DNA of 64,000 nucleotides from Pontibacter qinzhouensis. Its GTDB lineage: Bacteria; Bacteroidota; Bacteroidia; Cytophagales; Hymenobacteraceae. A program made the position numbers and the translations under genes. Of this stretch, positions 19,125-24,140 are shown piece after piece. The stretch is from assembly GCF_008017455.1 (NCBI RefSeq), contig NZ_VRTY01000023.1, positions 1-64,000 on the forward strand, given 5' to 3'. The notes beneath the pieces are model-generated. The model was given only the letters and a program-made list of their open reading frames with translations, ran no database searches and was not told the origin of the DNA. Every line of letters starts with the position of its first letter. The first letter of the stretch is position 1.

Positions 19125-20246
19125 CTAAGAAAGCGACTCTGCTTTAGATTTAGTAGTGTTCGTTGCCAGAATCTCATTCTGAACACCCATAGAGTGCTGG
19201 TGAATGGCATCGAAAATAGCTCTTACAAAACTCTCTTCCAGACCTGTTTCGCTGGCTACACGCATTCTGTTTTCTACCATCTGGTTCCAGCGGTCTGCCT
19301 GAAAAATATCGAGTTTATTGGCTTTCTTGTACTCCCCAATTCGCTTAGAAACGTCTGAACGAAGGAACAGCACATTAATCAGGTCTGTGTCCAGCTTGTC
19401 GATGAGGTTACGCAGTTCCTGCAATTGCTCCGGGCTGGCGACGTGCTCCGTGTCTAGGTCGAGCGAGGTGAGCAGCGTATCGAGGCCGGCTGGTGTTACT
19501 TGCTGGGAGGCATCACTCCAGGCAACGTCCGGGTTGTTGTGTGTTTCGATCATCAGACCATCTACACCTAAGTGCAGGGCCTGCTGGCTTACTGTCTGCA
19601 GCAAATCACGACGACCAGCTACGTGGCTCGGGTCGCAAAGCAACGGCACACCTGGCAGCAAAGCTTTAATTTGTTTAATAGTTTCCCATTTCGGGTGGTT
19701 GCGGTAAGGCTTGTTGTTTGGCGTAGAGAAACCTCTGTGAATCAGGCCAAGGTCGGTAATACCTGCCTGGTTCAGGCGCTCCAGCGCACCCACCCACAGC
19801 TGAATATCAGGGTTCACCGGGTTTTTAACCATCACCGGAATATCAACACCACGCAGTGCATCAGCAATTTCCTGAACTGAGAAAGGGTTTACTGTGGTGC
19901 GGGCACCTATCCAAAGAATATCCACACCATATTTAAGAGATTCTTCTACGTGGTTGGCATTCGCTACCTCGCAGGTAGTTAACAGACCCGTTTCCTGCTT
20001 CACAGTATTAAGCCACTCCAGACCAACTGTGCCGATACCTTCGAACATACCAGGGCGCGTACGAGGTTTCCAGATACCTGCTCTGAAAACAGATACTCGG
20101 TGATCTTTCTTTAACTCACGCGCAGTCTGGAGCATTTGCTCTTCGCTTTCTGCGCTGCACGGACCAGCGATAACCGTTGGCAGTGGGCCTCCATTTAAAA
20201 TCTTGGTCTTAGTTGCTAGCTGAAGGTTTGGATTGTTTGAACTCAT
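19125..20246 (-). CDS. bifunctional 3-deoxy-7-phosphoheptulonate synthase / chorismate mutase
   Basis: This cytosolic enzyme joins the first shikimate step (PEP plus erythrose 4-phosphate to DAHP) with conversion of chorismate to prephenate. Residues about 20-265 are a type I-beta DAHP synthase: VIAGPCSAES, FRAGIWKPRTRPG, VKNPVNPD, GLIHRGFS, and CDPSHVAGRR. Residues about 275-360 are an AroQ-type chorismate mutase (ELRNLIDKLDTDLINVL, then LRSDVSKRIGEYK). This fusion, with the mutase at the C-terminus, is common in Bacteroidota. It is the last gene of a three-gene operon, starting 2 bp after the aminotransferase. A close paralogue lies at 22819, whose leader may be regulated separately. Confidence 0.93.
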   Translation of the reverse strand: MSSNNPNLQLATKTKILNGGPLPTVIAGPCSAESEEQMLQTARELKKDHRVSVFRAGIWKPRTRPGMFEGIGTVGLEWLNTVKQETGLLTTCEVANANHVEESLKYGVDILWIGARTTVNPFSVQEIADALRGVDIPVMVKNPVNPDIQLWVGALERLNQAGITDLGLIHRGFSTPNNKPYRNHPKWETIKQIKALLPGVPLLCDPSHVAGRRDLLQTVSQQALHLGVDGLMIETHNNPDVAWSDASQQVTPAGLDTLLTSLDLDTEHVASPEQLQELRNLIDKLDTDLINVLFLRSDVSKRIGEYKKANKLDIFQADRWNQMVENRMRVASETGLEESFVRAIFDAIHQHSMGVQNEILATNTTKSKAESLS

Positions 20247-20248
20247 GG

Positions 20249-21424
20249 TTAATTTAAAATTATGGTGTGTTGTTTTATTCTTTTAATTGATTCTTCTAAT
20301 TGAGCTACCGGAACGCACAGCGATACACGTAAGTAGCGGTCTCCCTGGCTTCCGAAAATTTTACCCGGTGTCAGAAATACGCCTGCCTGGTACAGTATAT
20401 CGTCCAGAAAAGCTTCTACGTCGGGTATGGAGTCGGGCACTCTGGCCCATACAAACATGCCAACTGTAGCAGGGTTGTAGGTGCAGTCCAGCATGTCGAG
20501 TAGCTGGTGCGCTACCTGCTTGCGTTCGGCATACACCTCGTTTCGTTCTGCATGCCACTCATCAGAGTTCCGAAGTGCCTCAATGGCCGCATGCTGTACT
20601 GCCTGGAACATACCTGAATCGATGTTGCTTTTCACTGTCAGGATCGTATCGAGGTAATCTTTACGGCCCAGGATCATGCCTACGCGCCAGCCTGCCATGT
20701 TGTGCGACTTGCTCAAAGAGTTAAGTTCGAGGCAGCAATCGAGGGCGTTTGGTTGCCTTAACAAACTGATTGGCGGTGTATTAGGTAAAACCAAACTGTA
20801 TGGGTTATCGTTCACCAGCAGAAACTTATGTTTGCGTGCAAGGGCTACAAGCTGTGCAAAGGTATCGGCGGTAGCCTCTGCGCCGGTAGGCATGTGCGGG
20901 TAGTTCAGCCACATCAGTTTTACCCCCTGGCTTGCATGCTGCTCCAGTTCCTCCATGTCGGGCAGCCAGTTATTTTCGGCGGTCAGGTTATAGAAAACAG
21001 GCTCGGCACCAACCATACGGGCGGTGGTGGCATAGGCAGGATAACCTGGGTTGGGCACCAGCACTTTATCGCCTGGGTTCAGGAATGCCATGGTAATATG
21101 AAACACACCTTCCTTCGATCCCATCAGGGGCAACACCTCTGTATCCGCATCGAGTTGCACCTGGTAGGTGCTGCTGTACCAGTCGGCCATGGCTTTGCGA
21201 AGCGTTGGCAGCGAGCGGTATGGCTGGTACCCATGGCCCGAGGCCTGGGCAGCCGAAGCTGTAAGTGCAGCAGTGGTAGCTTCGGAGGGAGGGAGGTCCG
21301 GGCTTCCGATACCCAGGTTTATCACCTGCTTCCCTTGCGCATTCAGGGCAGCTACCTCAGCCAGCTTTTTGGCAAAGTAATACTCCTGAATCTGGGCCAG
21401 TCTATCGGCCTTAGGTATAATCAT
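20249..21424 (-). CDS. class I/II aminotransferase, probably aromatic amino acid type
   Basis: A PLP-dependent cytosolic aminotransferase of 391 residues. The PLP lysine is in SLSKSHNMAGWRVG (about residue 235), and the N-terminal INLGIGSPDLPPS, GSKEGVFHI and LVPNPGYPAY are fold-type I marks. Because it lies between prephenate dehydratase and DAHPS/CM, separated by 4 and 2 bp, it most likely performs the last transamination of phenylpyruvate (and hydroxyphenylpyruvate) to Phe and Tyr, or transaminates prephenate. Similar sequences are often labelled as LL-diaminopimelate or aspartate aminotransferases, so substrate rests on context. Expression should be controlled by the upstream attenuator. 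Confidence 0.88.
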   Translation of the reverse strand: MIIPKADRLAQIQEYYFAKKLAEVAALNAQGKQVINLGIGSPDLPPSEATTAALTASAAQASGHGYQPYRSLPTLRKAMADWYSSTYQVQLDADTEVLPLMGSKEGVFHITMAFLNPGDKVLVPNPGYPAYATTARMVGAEPVFYNLTAENNWLPDMEELEQHASQGVKLMWLNYPHMPTGAEATADTFAQLVALARKHKFLLVNDNPYSLVLPNTPPISLLRQPNALDCCLELNSLSKSHNMAGWRVGMILGRKDYLDTILTVKSNIDSGMFQAVQHAAIEALRNSDEWHAERNEVYAERKQVAHQLLDMLDCTYNPATVGMFVWARVPDSIPDVEAFLDDILYQAGVFLTPGKIFGSQGDRYLRVSLCVPVAQLEESIKRIKQHTIILN

Positions 21425-21428
21425 GGTT

Positions 21429-22322
21429 TTATGAGTTAACAGAAGTGGATAGTTCGCCTTCGCGGCACTCTTCTAATTGCTGTGGCGTCAGGGCCTTTTG
21501 GTACAGCCCGAGCAGTTGCAGGTCTTCCACCATCGGCTTTAGTTCTTCTATGGCATGCAGCAGCCTGTAGTAATCGTCACACTCCAGGTCTATAGCTACG
21601 TTGTGGCTCGTGTTACCTGCCGGTGCCGGAATAGATTGGATGAGCGGAATATTGATATCTTCGGTATACAGTTTATTGATCACAGCTCCGAGCCAGCTGC
21701 CCACATGCGGAATCTGTACGATAAGCGAGGCCTTGTTGGCTGTTGGCTTAGGTGCTTGTGCCTGTGGTTGGCTCGATAGCACCAGGAAGCGGGTATAGTT
21801 GTCTTTTCGGTCGGCAACGTGCTCCTGCAGCATCTCCATGCCATACAGTTCTGCGGCCTGGCTACTGGCAATGGCGGCTACACCTTTCAGACCTTTAGCG
21901 CTGATTTCGCGGGCGCTGTCGGCGGTGTCCTGGCGTTCTTCGGTAGGCAGGTGGTGCTGGCGCAGAAAAAGCCCGCACTGCAACAGCGCCACCGGATGCG
22001 AAATAACGGTTTTAATGTCTTCCAGCCGCTGGCCTGGCAATGCCATCAGGTTCTGATCTATCGGCAGCCACAGCTCCCCGATAATCTGGAAGTGCTGGTA
22101 CTCCTGCAGCAAGGTGTAGTTCGTCAGGATGCTGCCCGCCAGTGCATTCTGAATGGCCATTACGCCGTAAGTTGCTTCGCCCAGGTGCAGTTGCTCACAC
22201 AGCTGATCAAACGAACTGCAGGGCAGAATCTCTGCCTTTTCAGGTGCGAAATACTTACGGGCTGCTGTATCGTGGAAAGAGGCAGCGCCACCCTGAATTG
22301 CGATTTTAATTTCTGTTGCCAT
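21429..22322 (-). CDS. pheA: prephenate dehydratase
   Basis: This cytosolic enzyme turns prephenate into phenylpyruvate. The protein has 297 residues: a dehydratase domain (about 5-185; IAIQGGAASFHDTAA, YGVMAIQNALAGS, and NYTRFLVLS with the catalytic TRF) and a C-terminal ACT domain (about 203-272). The ACT domain has the glycine-rich GSWLGAVINKL loop, but where Phe-binding ACT domains read ESRP this one reads QSIP, so feedback inhibition by Phe may be weak or different. No chorismate mutase is fused; that activity is in the third gene. It is the first structural gene of the operon, 15 bp after a terminator hairpin that forms part of an attenuator. Confidence 0.93.
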   Translation of the reverse strand: MATEIKIAIQGGAASFHDTAARKYFAPEKAEILPCSSFDQLCEQLHLGEATYGVMAIQNALAGSILTNYTLLQEYQHFQIIGELWLPIDQNLMALPGQRLEDIKTVISHPVALLQCGLFLRQHHLPTEERQDTADSAREISAKGLKGVAAIASSQAAELYGMEMLQEHVADRKDNYTRFLVLSSQPQAQAPKPTANKASLIVQIPHVGSWLGAVINKLYTEDINIPLIQSIPAPAGNTSHNVAIDLECDDYYRLLHAIEELKPMVEDLQLLGLYQKALTPQQLEECREGELSTSVNS

Positions 22323-22337
22323 AGTATATTTAAACGA

Positions 22338-22362
22338 AAAGCCCCGCTTGCGGCGGGGCTTT
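22338..22362 (-). terminator. attenuator terminator before pheA
   Basis: In the RNA, AAAGCCCCGC pairs with GCGGGGCTTT around a five-base loop, followed by a U-rich run (UUUUCGUUU). It lies in the 5' leader, 15 bp upstream of the pheA start, so it must be bypassed for expression. Its 5' strand contains AGCCCC, which is complementary to GGGGCT at 22409-22414, giving the competing antiterminator. Confidence 0.9.
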
Positions 22363-22413
22363 CAAGATTTTGCTGTATGTTTTATAAACGCAATAGCATT
22401 ACCTCCGGAGCCC

Positions 22414-22467
22414 CTAGTGGGTACCAAAAAAGTAAAAGCTAAAGTAAAATGCGTTGCTTAAAATCAT
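22414..22467 (-). CDS. Phe/Tyr leader peptide of the pheA operon
   Basis: A 17-codon frame reading MILSNAFYFSFYFFGTH then TAG. Eight consecutive codons (TTT TAC TTT AGC TTT TAC TTT TTT) hold five Phe and two Tyr. This is the classical design of a regulatory leader peptide: the ribosome stalls when charged tRNA-Phe or tRNA-Tyr is scarce. The last base of the TAG is the first base of GGGGCT, the antiterminator strand, so a ribosome that reaches the stop would cover it and allow the terminator at 22338 to form, while a ribosome stalled upstream would leave it free. Strand, order and spacing (leader, antiterminator, terminator, pheA) all fit. The function is inferred, but coincidence is very unlikely. 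Confidence 0.9.
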   Translation of the reverse strand: MILSNAFYFSFYFFGTH

Positions 22468-22513
22468 GTTTTTATTATTATGCTGTAATATTAAGGAAAC
22501 TCTTAATAACCGT

Positions 22514-22543
22514 CAAACTTTTTTGCGAAATTTTTTTTCCAAA
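22514..22543 (-). promoter_or_regulatory. probable promoter of the pheA leader
   Basis: On the minus strand TTTG (22540-22543) is followed after 18 bases by AAAGTTTG (22514-22521), close to the Bacteroidota consensus TTTG...TAnnTTTG with one mismatch. Transcription would start near 22507, about 40 bases before the leader peptide. Confidence 0.55.
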
Positions 22544-22762
22544 TCTTTTTAACGAAGAATTCAAAGGTATTTAATTTCTTGTTTAATGAGGTTATTGCCC
22601 ATGCAGCCTGGTACTACATATAACTTTTCTATATAAGCTAGAACACTGGTTGGGAGGAGGAGGTTCAAAAAATGGCTGCTTAACTAAAAAAAACTTTCGA
22701 AGCTGCTGCTCGCCCTTACTTCCTGCTGCTGATATAGGCAATTCTACTTCGGGGTTAATTAC

Positions 22763-22796
22763 AAAGCGAGCCGGCTTTACATCACCGGCTCGCTTT
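22763..22796 (-). terminator. terminator of the second DAHPS/CM gene
   Basis: A perfect 12-bp stem, AAAGCGAGCCGG and complement, around a 10-base loop, 22 bp after the stop codon at 22819. The 220 bp between it and the pheA promoter show no gene. Confidence 0.88.
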
Positions 22797-22818: not shown

Positions 22819-23916
22819 TCAGGAGCCCATATCGGCGTACAGGTGAGTTTGTGCATACTGTTTGCGCACCTCCTGAAAGACTGTTTTTACAAAGTCTTTG
22901 TTTATGCCGAACGAGTTAGCCTGCTTCAGCAGTTTCTCCAGCACGTCGTCCCAGGCTTGTTGTCTGTCTAAGCTGCATTCGTCGGCTTTTAAATCTCCGA
23001 TCTGGGCAGAAACCAACGAACGGCGCGCCATCAGGTCGAGGAGCTGGTCGTCGAGGTGCTCAATTTCTTTGCGCAGTTCTTCCATCATCACACCTTTTCG
23101 GGTTATATCTTCATCGGTATGGTTCAACTTCAGCGATTGCAGGAGCATGTCTAACTCCTGCGGCATAAGCTGCTGTTGCGCATCGCTCAGGGCCATTACC
23201 GGGTTGTGGTGCGATTCAACCATTAAGCCATCGTAACCCAGGTCGAGTGCACGCTGGCTAACCGGTCGTAACAGGCTTCTGCGGCCCGCTATGTGGCTGG
23301 CATCGCAGTAAACTGGCAGGTCCGGCAGCATGTTCTTCAGTTCTACCACATGGTCCCACTTCGGGTGGTTGCGGTAAGGTGCATTGTCTATGGTAGAGAA
23401 ACCTCTGTGTATAACCCCCAGGTCGGTTATGCCATTCTGGTCGAAACGCTCCAAAGCACCCAGCCACAGCATAAGTTCGGGGCTAACCGGGTTTTTTACG
23501 AGTACCGGCACAGAGGCACCTTTAAGCGAATCTGCTATTTCCTGCACCATAAAAGAGTTAACGGTGGTGTGGGCTCCAATTATCAGAATATCTACTCCCT
23601 GTTTCATAGCTTCGGCTACATGGCTGGTGTTGGCTACCTCGCAGGCGGTACGTAAACCGGTTTCCTGCTTTACGGTGCGCAGCCACTCGAGGCCAATACT
23701 GCCAACACCCTGGAAACTACCCGGACGGGTACGCGGTTTCCAGATGCCAGCCCTGAAAATAGTAACACCCTGCAGCTTTTTCAGCCCCTGGGCTGTTAGC
23801 AGCATTTGTTCCTCGTTCTCAGCACTGCAAGGGCCGGCGATTACAACAGGGCTCGACGTTTTGGCCAAGGTGCTGGTTTCTTTGGCCAGGTGCAAGCTAG
23901 GTGTGGAAGTTCTCAT
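22819..23916 (-). CDS. second bifunctional DAHP synthase / chorismate mutase
   Basis: A 365-residue paralogue of the enzyme at 19125, with the same domain order. The synthase part shows VIAGPCSAENEEQM, FRAGIWKPRTRPG, LVKNPVSPE, GVIHRGFST and CDASHIAGRR; the mutase part shows ELRKEIEHLDDQLLDLMARRSLVSAQIG. Identity to the paralogue is high through the synthase and lower in the mutase, which suggests different regulation or division of labour. It is a single-gene unit with its own promoter, attenuator-like leader and terminator. The CDASH motif differs from CDPSH in the paralogue. Two such enzymes within 5 kb suggest isoenzymes answering to different end products; which ones cannot be read from the sequence. 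Confidence 0.92.
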   Translation of the reverse strand: MRTSTPSLHLAKETSTLAKTSSPVVIAGPCSAENEEQMLLTAQGLKKLQGVTIFRAGIWKPRTRPGSFQGVGSIGLEWLRTVKQETGLRTACEVANTSHVAEAMKQGVDILIIGAHTTVNSFMVQEIADSLKGASVPVLVKNPVSPELMLWLGALERFDQNGITDLGVIHRGFSTIDNAPYRNHPKWDHVVELKNMLPDLPVYCDASHIAGRRSLLRPVSQRALDLGYDGLMVESHHNPVMALSDAQQQLMPQELDMLLQSLKLNHTDEDITRKGVMMEELRKEIEHLDDQLLDLMARRSLVSAQIGDLKADECSLDRQQAWDDVLEKLLKQANSFGINKDFVKTVFQEVRKQYAQTHLYADMGS

Positions 23917-23962
23917 AATTTACTTTTTTAATCTATTAAGTAAGTTTTGTCAAAAATAAGAA

Positions 23963-23983
23963 AGCCCCGCTTGGGGCGGGGCT
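23963..23983 (-). terminator. attenuator-like terminator before the second DAHPS/CM gene
   Basis: In the RNA, AGCCCCGC pairs with GCGGGGCT around a five-base loop, followed by UUCUUAUUUUU. It lies 46 bp upstream of the start codon, so it sits in the leader, not after a gene. The AGCCCC strand can also pair with GGGGCT at 24031-24036. Sequence and layout closely parallel the pheA attenuator. Confidence 0.8.
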
Positions 23984-24028
23984 CTTCTGGTTTATCTTTC
24001 CATTACTATTAACGCAAAGCTTCTGCCA

Positions 24029-24091
24029 TTAGCCCCTTATACAGGTGCAAATAGATTTCAGATTTTGGGCTTGTACGCAGACTAATAACAT
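24029..24091 (-). CDS. possible leader ORF of the second DAHPS/CM gene
   Basis: A 20-codon frame starting MLLVCVQAQNLK and ending CIRG then TAA. Its stop codon overlaps the GGGGCT antiterminator strand, exactly the geometry of the pheA leader. It has no Phe, Tyr or Trp; instead three Cys codons occur. A different frame over the same bases has two Tyr codons but no normal start. So the architecture supports attenuation, while the signal sensed is unclear and this ORF may not be the one translated. Confidence 0.4.
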   Translation of the reverse strand: MLLVCVQAQNLKSICTCIRG

Positions 24092-24140
24092 GGTTCTTTC
24101 TTTTTAGGATGTGTAAATGTAATCTTAATTATTTAAATAC

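Follow-up and report, generated by a model that had tools for sequence, protein, structure and literature searches.

What controls transcription of the aromatic amino-acid biosynthesis genes that begin with prephenate dehydratase (pheA) at this locus, and does the short region ahead of them read the supply of Phe and Tyr? The window analyzed, a stretch of 64 kb, carries pheA on the minus strand; genes for an aminotransferase and then for a DAHP synthase-chorismate mutase follow it, and a paralog of the latter lies upstream of the unit. The nearest named relative of the protein is from Pontibacter beigongshangensis (90% identity in the best segment), and since this is the closest named relative we take our genus group g1 to be Pontibacter. 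An earlier note had proposed a complete Phe/Tyr leader attenuator with all parts in the right order and on the right strand. This proposal holds, and every element named in it sits, base for base, where it was placed (Table 1). Its term 'translational attenuation' is the wrong one, because what is attenuated in such an element is transcription.

Table 1. Features of the pheA attenuator, its gene neighborhood and the sister attenuator, in window coordinates.
Feature	Position	Strand	Details
Second -7-like element	22562-22569	-	TACCTTTG; from sequence
Candidate promoter	22514..22543	-	TTTG-N18-AAAGTTTG; TTTG 22543-22540, AAAGTTTG 22521-22514; from sequence
Leader ORF	22414..22467	-	MILSNAFYFSFYFFGTH, then stop; ATG 22467, stop TAG 22416-22414; kept in relatives
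Outer sequestering stem (predicted), 5' strand	22450..22459	-	AAGCAACGCA; two overlapping registers
AGC (Ser) codon breaking the aromatic run	22438..22440	-	predicted sequestering-stem partner GCT 22395-22397
GG..CCC, 5' arm of predicted local hairpin	22419..22425	-	would hold the antiterminator strand
Antiterminator strand GGGGCT	22409..22414	-	first base 14 nt past first base of last aromatic codon
Outer sequestering stem (predicted), 3' strand	22387..22393	-	TTGCGTT
AGCCCC	22355..22360	-	terminator 5' arm and antiterminator partner
Intrinsic terminator	22337..22362	-	AAAGCCCCGCCGCAAGCGGGGCTTTT; 15 bp before pheA
Prephenate dehydratase (pheA)	21429..22322	-	ATG 22322; PF00800, E 4.3e-55
Class I/II aminotransferase	20249..21424	-	second gene after attenuator; PF00155
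DAHP synthase-chorismate mutase	19125..20246	-	third gene; PF00793 and PF01817
Terminator-like hairpin behind upstream DAHP synthase gene	22764..22795	-	8 G-C pairs, weak T tail; -473..-442 from pheA start
Paralogous DAHP synthase-chorismate mutase	22819..23916	-	upstream of pheA unit; PF00793 and PF01817
Sister attenuator	23952..24092	-	leader 24091-24029, MLLVCVQAQNLKSICTCIRG, then stop; GGGGCT 24036-24031; terminator about 23958-23985

Codons 7-14 of the leader (TTT TAC TTT AGC TTT TAC TTT TTT) are aromatic in seven of eight positions, and an intrinsic terminator precedes the first structural gene; the element thus has both the cognate-codon leader ORF and the terminator that mark a classical attenuator. 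We read it as a classical ribosome-mediated attenuator of transcription, responsive to Phe and Tyr, with a probability of roughly 0.93. From its parts we infer that the leader is translated, that the ribosome stalls within it and that the stall affects transcription. A ribosome would translate the leader as RNA polymerase transcribes it. With charged Phe- and Tyr-tRNA in ample supply, the ribosome would clear the aromatic run and get to the stop codon, where it would cover GGGGCT; the terminator would then form and transcription would stop before pheA. Were either charged tRNA scarce, the ribosome would halt within the run, its leading edge just short of GGGGCT. Because the stalled ribosome would block the GG..CCC strand predicted to hold GGGGCT, the latter would be free to pair with AGCCCC, the terminator could not form, and read-through would allow prephenate dehydratase, the aminotransferase and DAHP synthase-chorismate mutase to be made.

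The aromatic run cannot serve as proof by its rarity. The pattern (TWY)3-NNN-(TWY)3 occurs 61 times in the genome, with some 20 of these inside a single TAT repeat, and the reversed control occurs 52 times. The abundance of such runs lends something to the idea that a chance aromatic ORF lies beside the ordinary terminator of an upstream transcript; this idea is opposed by the terminator-like hairpin that the upstream gene has of its own, and by the presence of the element, with preferred geometry and specific pairing, in 113 genomes, and we regard it as extremely improbable. The combination of leader run and terminator, unlike the run alone, is rare: when the window was scanned for leaders whose run, drawn from a single amino-acid group, precedes a terminator, the pheA leader was the sole match among 39 terminator-like hairpins examined, in a scan that is by design blind to leaders lacking a run, such as the sister element described below. 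Folding of 22323-22507 (185 nt), a check suggested in the earlier note, gave z = -2.98, with the native RNA more stable than 199 of 200 shuffles and equaled by one.

The earlier note also predicted that the aromatic run, the complementary strands and the terminator would be conserved, and the upstream DNA of relatives, as well as an alignment of 40 attenuators, bears this out. PF00800 was found in 34/50 genomes of the genus, 118/150 of the family, 107/148 of the order, 31/119 of the class and 102/118 of the phylum, these draws being overlapping. Among genomes with a match, upstream DNA was taken for 92 out of 118 in the family, 73 out of 97 in the remainder of the order and 26 out of 27 in the remainder of the class; of 77 in the remainder of the phylum, the 28 with the best scores were used. 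Calling an attenuator required five or more aromatic residues within eight in the leader, and a terminator 25-110 nt past the run. All 92 family genomes had both parts, as did 4/73 from the order outside the family and 17/26 from the class outside the order; no aromatic leader was found among the 28 best-scoring genomes from the rest of the phylum, and the Weeksellaceae contig L029 had no attenuator. In f15 and f2 aromatic ORFs occur without a terminator and were left out of the count. The totals are 113 genomes and 151 attenuators, or 152 counting one duplicate assembly. A gene tree for which genes of the fetched loci had to be 220-330 residues long placed 17 of the 26 order rows lacking an attenuator, together with two others, in one separate clade of 19 rows, none of which has it. 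Conservation of the element in relatives removes the remaining doubt that it is real.

Within the pheA leaders the aromatic identity is kept while Phe and Tyr swap, and the runs vary between genus groups; in 15 distinct rows the run has a pS of 0.44 and a pN of 0.15. Promoter motifs were present in under half of the 113 regions upstream of the leaders: TTTG-N16-22-WANNTTTG in 25 (0.4 in shuffles, 9 reversed) and TTG-N17-23-TANNTTKG in 46 (1.1 in shuffles, 4 reversed).

The pairing between antiterminator and terminator is specific to each attenuator. Across 75 representatives, the antiterminator region and the terminator arm of the same attenuator formed duplexes with a mean energy of -15.81 kcal/mol; when terminators were exchanged among them the mean was -12.26 (sd 0.30), and none of 2000 permutations went below -13.34. 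By this permutation test a strand that competes for the terminator 5' arm is present. The own terminator was not always the best partner (median rank 9 of 75), and many terminators are alike. The cores vary by lineage while their complementarity stays, as in CGGGGCT/AGCCCCG, GTCGAG/CTCGAC, AGAACGAGT/ACTCGTTCT, CCGGGATTT/AAGTCCCGG and GGAGGCGGGA/TCCCGCCTCC. The parts of the element, their order, their conservation and the specificity of their pairing are matters of observation.

To the 40-row alignment, made up of single-leader attenuators, group g1 contributes 25 rows and g20 contributes 15. GGGGCTC is invariant in all 40, and a terminator hairpin is predicted with core pairs unchanged in 38-40 of the 40. 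The antiterminator helix shows no covariation in these rows, because its pairs never vary. In most rows GGGGCTC forms leader codons; in L047, L053 and L035 it is read in another frame, with one base less before it, and only in the window and in G041 (row L041) does it follow or overlap the stop codon. Since frame and stop position change over an invariant GGGGCTC, it is the RNA and not the peptide that is kept there.

The position of the core relative to the run is also constrained. The distance from the first base of the last aromatic codon to the start of the core is 12-14 nt in 101/152 attenuators, including all 26 g1 singles (duplicate included; 13 nt in 20) and all 15 of g20 (13 nt in 14), and 8-18 nt in 130/152, compared with 31/152 when spacers were shuffled. 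The leading edge of a ribosome halted on the last aromatic codon would fall at about the core start. Exceptions cluster in the first leaders of serial attenuator pairs, where the distance is 19 nt in 7/9 cases of g1, 3/3 of g18 and 6/26 of g19.

In the earlier note, the overlap of antiterminator and stop codon was seen as a distinct switch worked by the terminating ribosome. The alignment, the stop positions and the ribosome coverage lead us to reject a special mechanism of this kind. The stop codon lies downstream of the core in 98 of the 152 attenuators, begins upstream of it in 50 and lies inside it in only 4. A ribosome extends up to 12 nt beyond the stop codon, according to passages of a published study (PMC4833913). 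If the terminating ribosome is assumed to reach from 18 nt behind the stop codon to 12 nt ahead of it, the core is wholly covered in 110 of 151 attenuators, covered in part in 27 and uncovered in 14, so that it is at least partly covered in 137/151; in 13/151 it lies behind the ribosome. The overlap is a local detail, one of several ways in which the core comes under the terminating ribosome.

The predicted consensus fold of the 40 rows has an outer stem between the leader start and TTGCGTT, an inner AGC/GCT pairing, for which g20 has GGT with ACT, and a local hairpin in which GG..CCC holds GGG.CT of the antiterminator. The five pairs of the local hairpin are standard in 40/40 rows, one of them always G-U. 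Two-sided changes occur at two pairs, columns 17:84 (G-C in 16 rows, A-U in 14) and 36:77, within AGC/GCT (C-G in 25, U-A in 14), and may represent few events because the rows are related. For the outer stem, in both registers, more cells are paired, and more are changed on both sides, than in any shuffle or slide; the counts of changed pairs and of pair types are not above controls, and one slide has a higher covariation score. Such a sequestering stem would explain why a single Ser or Gly codon breaks the aromatic run.

We also folded the RNA at the decision point with the ribosome in different positions. With a stalled ribosome the predicted core-terminator pairing had a mean of 0.96 and exceeded 0.5 in 148/151 attenuators (0.99 in the window); with the ribosome at the stop codon it was 0.01, above 0.5 in 2/151 (0.00 in the window), a value that is in part a product of the method, which omits from the folding any RNA behind the ribosome. 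With no ribosome the mean was 0.69, above 0.5 in 110/151 (0.35 in the window), so the ribosome-free RNA is not clearly 'off' in these predictions. The notion that only the last aromatic codons matter is not supported, as a stall three codons earlier gives the same folding result.

A comparison with Rfam bears on whether a T-box or other metabolite-binding RNA might work the same terminator, with the leader ORF incidental. Such devices also have a terminator directly before the gene. No Rfam family reached its gathering score anywhere in the window, the 21 Rfam matches that 22300-22560 gives at E values of up to 10 do not include T-box, and the leader ORF persists through Phe/Tyr swaps, all of which leaves this explanation with almost no probability. 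The Phe_leader family (RF01859) matches the pheA leader at 22465-22332 on the right strand, spanning the whole model and beginning 2 bases into the leader ORF, at 30.1 bits and E 0.0023, below the gathering score of 55; the unrelated family RsmY, on the other strand, has a lower E value, 0.0016.

A second element of this layout lies before the paralogous DAHP synthase gene. The covariance model of the 40 pheA attenuators (R1) matches it with 47.0 bits (E 1.8e-9); its fold has z -2.80, and it ends 36 nt before the gene. R1 has nine matches with E <=0.01 in the genome, including C165:1516-1629 (E 4.5e-5), and the weak matches beyond the pheA and sister attenuators may be plain terminators. A model of 21 sister elements also matches the pheA attenuators of g1, g20 and g17, and it finds the element in 50/50 genomes of the genus, including 16 (G003, G004, G016 and G040 among them) that lack a prephenate dehydratase match yet keep the DAHP synthase attenuator. 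In G004, one of these, a decayed pheA-type attenuator with stops within its run (L304, G004:C5:253387-253531) lies behind the DAHP synthase attenuator region. Close to the expected start, each of the 50 elements has an ORF of 20-28 codons, and in 49 the next gene has a short motif taken as a check for DAHP synthase, G061 being off by one residue (the Pfam assignment is that of the window's gene).

The sister leaders lack an aromatic run: in 49/50 no stretch of eight codons has more than three aromatic residues. Most share the motifs [TAK]NS (31/50) and [KLM]V[PLQH] (45/50); six of 50, the window among them, are of an N(L/Q)KSI or NKSI type. In 32 rows that align gap-free, the window's subgroup being excluded, Ser12 is kept in 30 rows by four TCN codons, Val15 in 32/32 by four GTN codons and Thr10 in 25 by several ACN codons, and pN/pS is 0.88 for codons 2-7, 0.52 for codons 8-16 and 0.74 for codons 17-22. 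The plain reading of these patterns is that selection acts on the sister peptide; a bolder reading makes it a candidate arrest peptide. Its antiterminator pairs are 89.6% standard, which is not above shuffles (383/500 as high). We suggest, tentatively and at somewhat less than even odds, that the switches of the two adjacent aromatic-pathway units descend from a shared ancestor and use one RNA chassis with two sensing modes: pheA would read Phe and Tyr codons, and the DAHP synthase leader, with [TAK]-N-S-x-[KLM]-V-P under selection in most of the genus and an N-L-K-S-I type in this species' subgroup, would act through nascent-chain arrest in response to some small molecule from the aromatic pathway.

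The sister element raises the same question for pheA itself, namely whether its leader works as an arrest peptide, sensing free Phe or Tyr inside the ribosome tunnel, and not as a codon run that senses tRNA charging. The shared RNA layout, together with a non-aromatic leader conserved at the amino-acid level in the 32 sister rows, gives this some ground, but Phe and Tyr swap in the pheA leaders, the runs differ between genus groups, and past the run the frame changes over GGGGCTC indicate that RNA is kept rather than peptide. We therefore consider it very unlikely and retain the Phe/Tyr codon-reading attenuator as our interpretation.

The window has a single attenuator before pheA and is not a tandem case; in 38 of the 92 family genomes (for example L016, L072 and L123), two aromatic leaders, each with a terminator, stand in series. 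Serial pairs occur in 3/3 genomes of g18, 26/32 of g19 and 9/34 of g1, and row G139, counted as single, has two terminators. On a gene tree with 30 of the 38 serial genomes, explaining this state takes four changes, for example two gains and two losses, and four are also required when only well-supported branches are considered; serial pairs thus likely have at least two origins. In g19 the first leader ends in Tyr in 26/26 pairs and the second also does in 15/26, and in the nine g1 pairs both leaders end Y-F-F, so that an arrangement of one Tyr sensor and one Phe sensor is no more than a possibility.

The genus appears to use such switches elsewhere, as suggested by a WWWHV leader with terminator before trpE in 6/6 genus genomes examined (this genome and five others). 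Here, the trpE leader MNQNLHTAWWWHVGKNIVDSPAMNPIK and the terminator after it lie about 205 to 121 nt upstream of a PF04715 match (L286, G000:C188), and a leader with HHHFHH lies about 348 to 249 nt upstream of a PF01634 match (hisG; L281, G000:C188). A His-rich leader precedes hisG in 6/6 of these genomes, in which the scan found no terminator between leader and gene. Because trpE and hisG also have cognate leaders, attenuation is probably a general habit here.

Taken together, our data indicate that classical leader-peptide attenuation is a widespread control of aromatic amino-acid synthesis in the surrounding class, where regulation is little studied. About 150 natural variants provide a measurable rule, that the antiterminator tends to begin where the stalled ribosome would end, and the serial pairs and the non-aromatic sister leader are testable cases of switches multiplying and perhaps changing their signal. 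The kind of element is already known, while its pheA member is new: our literature search, which covered open-access papers, found no description of the present pheA attenuator and no report of a serial Phe/Tyr pair. Lopatovskaya et al. 2010, cited in PMC4833913, may contain predictions for Bacteroidota.

The E. coli pheA attenuator is a classical leader-peptide attenuator before prephenate dehydratase. The window resembles it and RF01859 in its leader rich in cognate codons, its mutually exclusive antiterminator and terminator, and the prephenate dehydratase gene downstream; it differs in mixing Phe and Tyr codons in the run, in the aminotransferase and DAHP synthase-chorismate mutase genes that follow, and in the Ser or Gly codon within the run that joins a predicted sequestering stem. 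Beyond E. coli, passages of Naville and Gautheret 2010 state that before their Firmicutes case no leader-peptide system was known outside Proteobacteria and Actinobacteria (PMC2965389), and passages on a B. thetaiotaomicron map mention short ORFs reminiscent of leader peptides (PMC7366714). The case is not a first for Bacteroidota, of which the earlier note knew little: a transcriptome of Flavobacterium psychrophilum, from the same phylum, gives strong clues for the same kind of attenuation before amino-acid biosynthesis operons, in passages that, unlike the present analysis, name no operons and compare no relatives (PMC9723704). The sister attenuator is like TnaC, as described in passages of two papers, in that transcription attenuation is tied to a conserved leader peptide and not to a run of codons (PMC8429421, PMC3902921); TnaC controls a breakdown operon, unlike the sister attenuator, and no sequence likeness is claimed. 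Finally, the serial relatives are like Salmonella mgtCBR, in which two leader ORFs, each within an attenuator, precede one operon; passages of that study term these tandem attenuators for different signals a singular example, and its pair answers ATP and proline, whereas both leaders of the relatives' pairs are rich in Phe and Tyr (PMC3641672).
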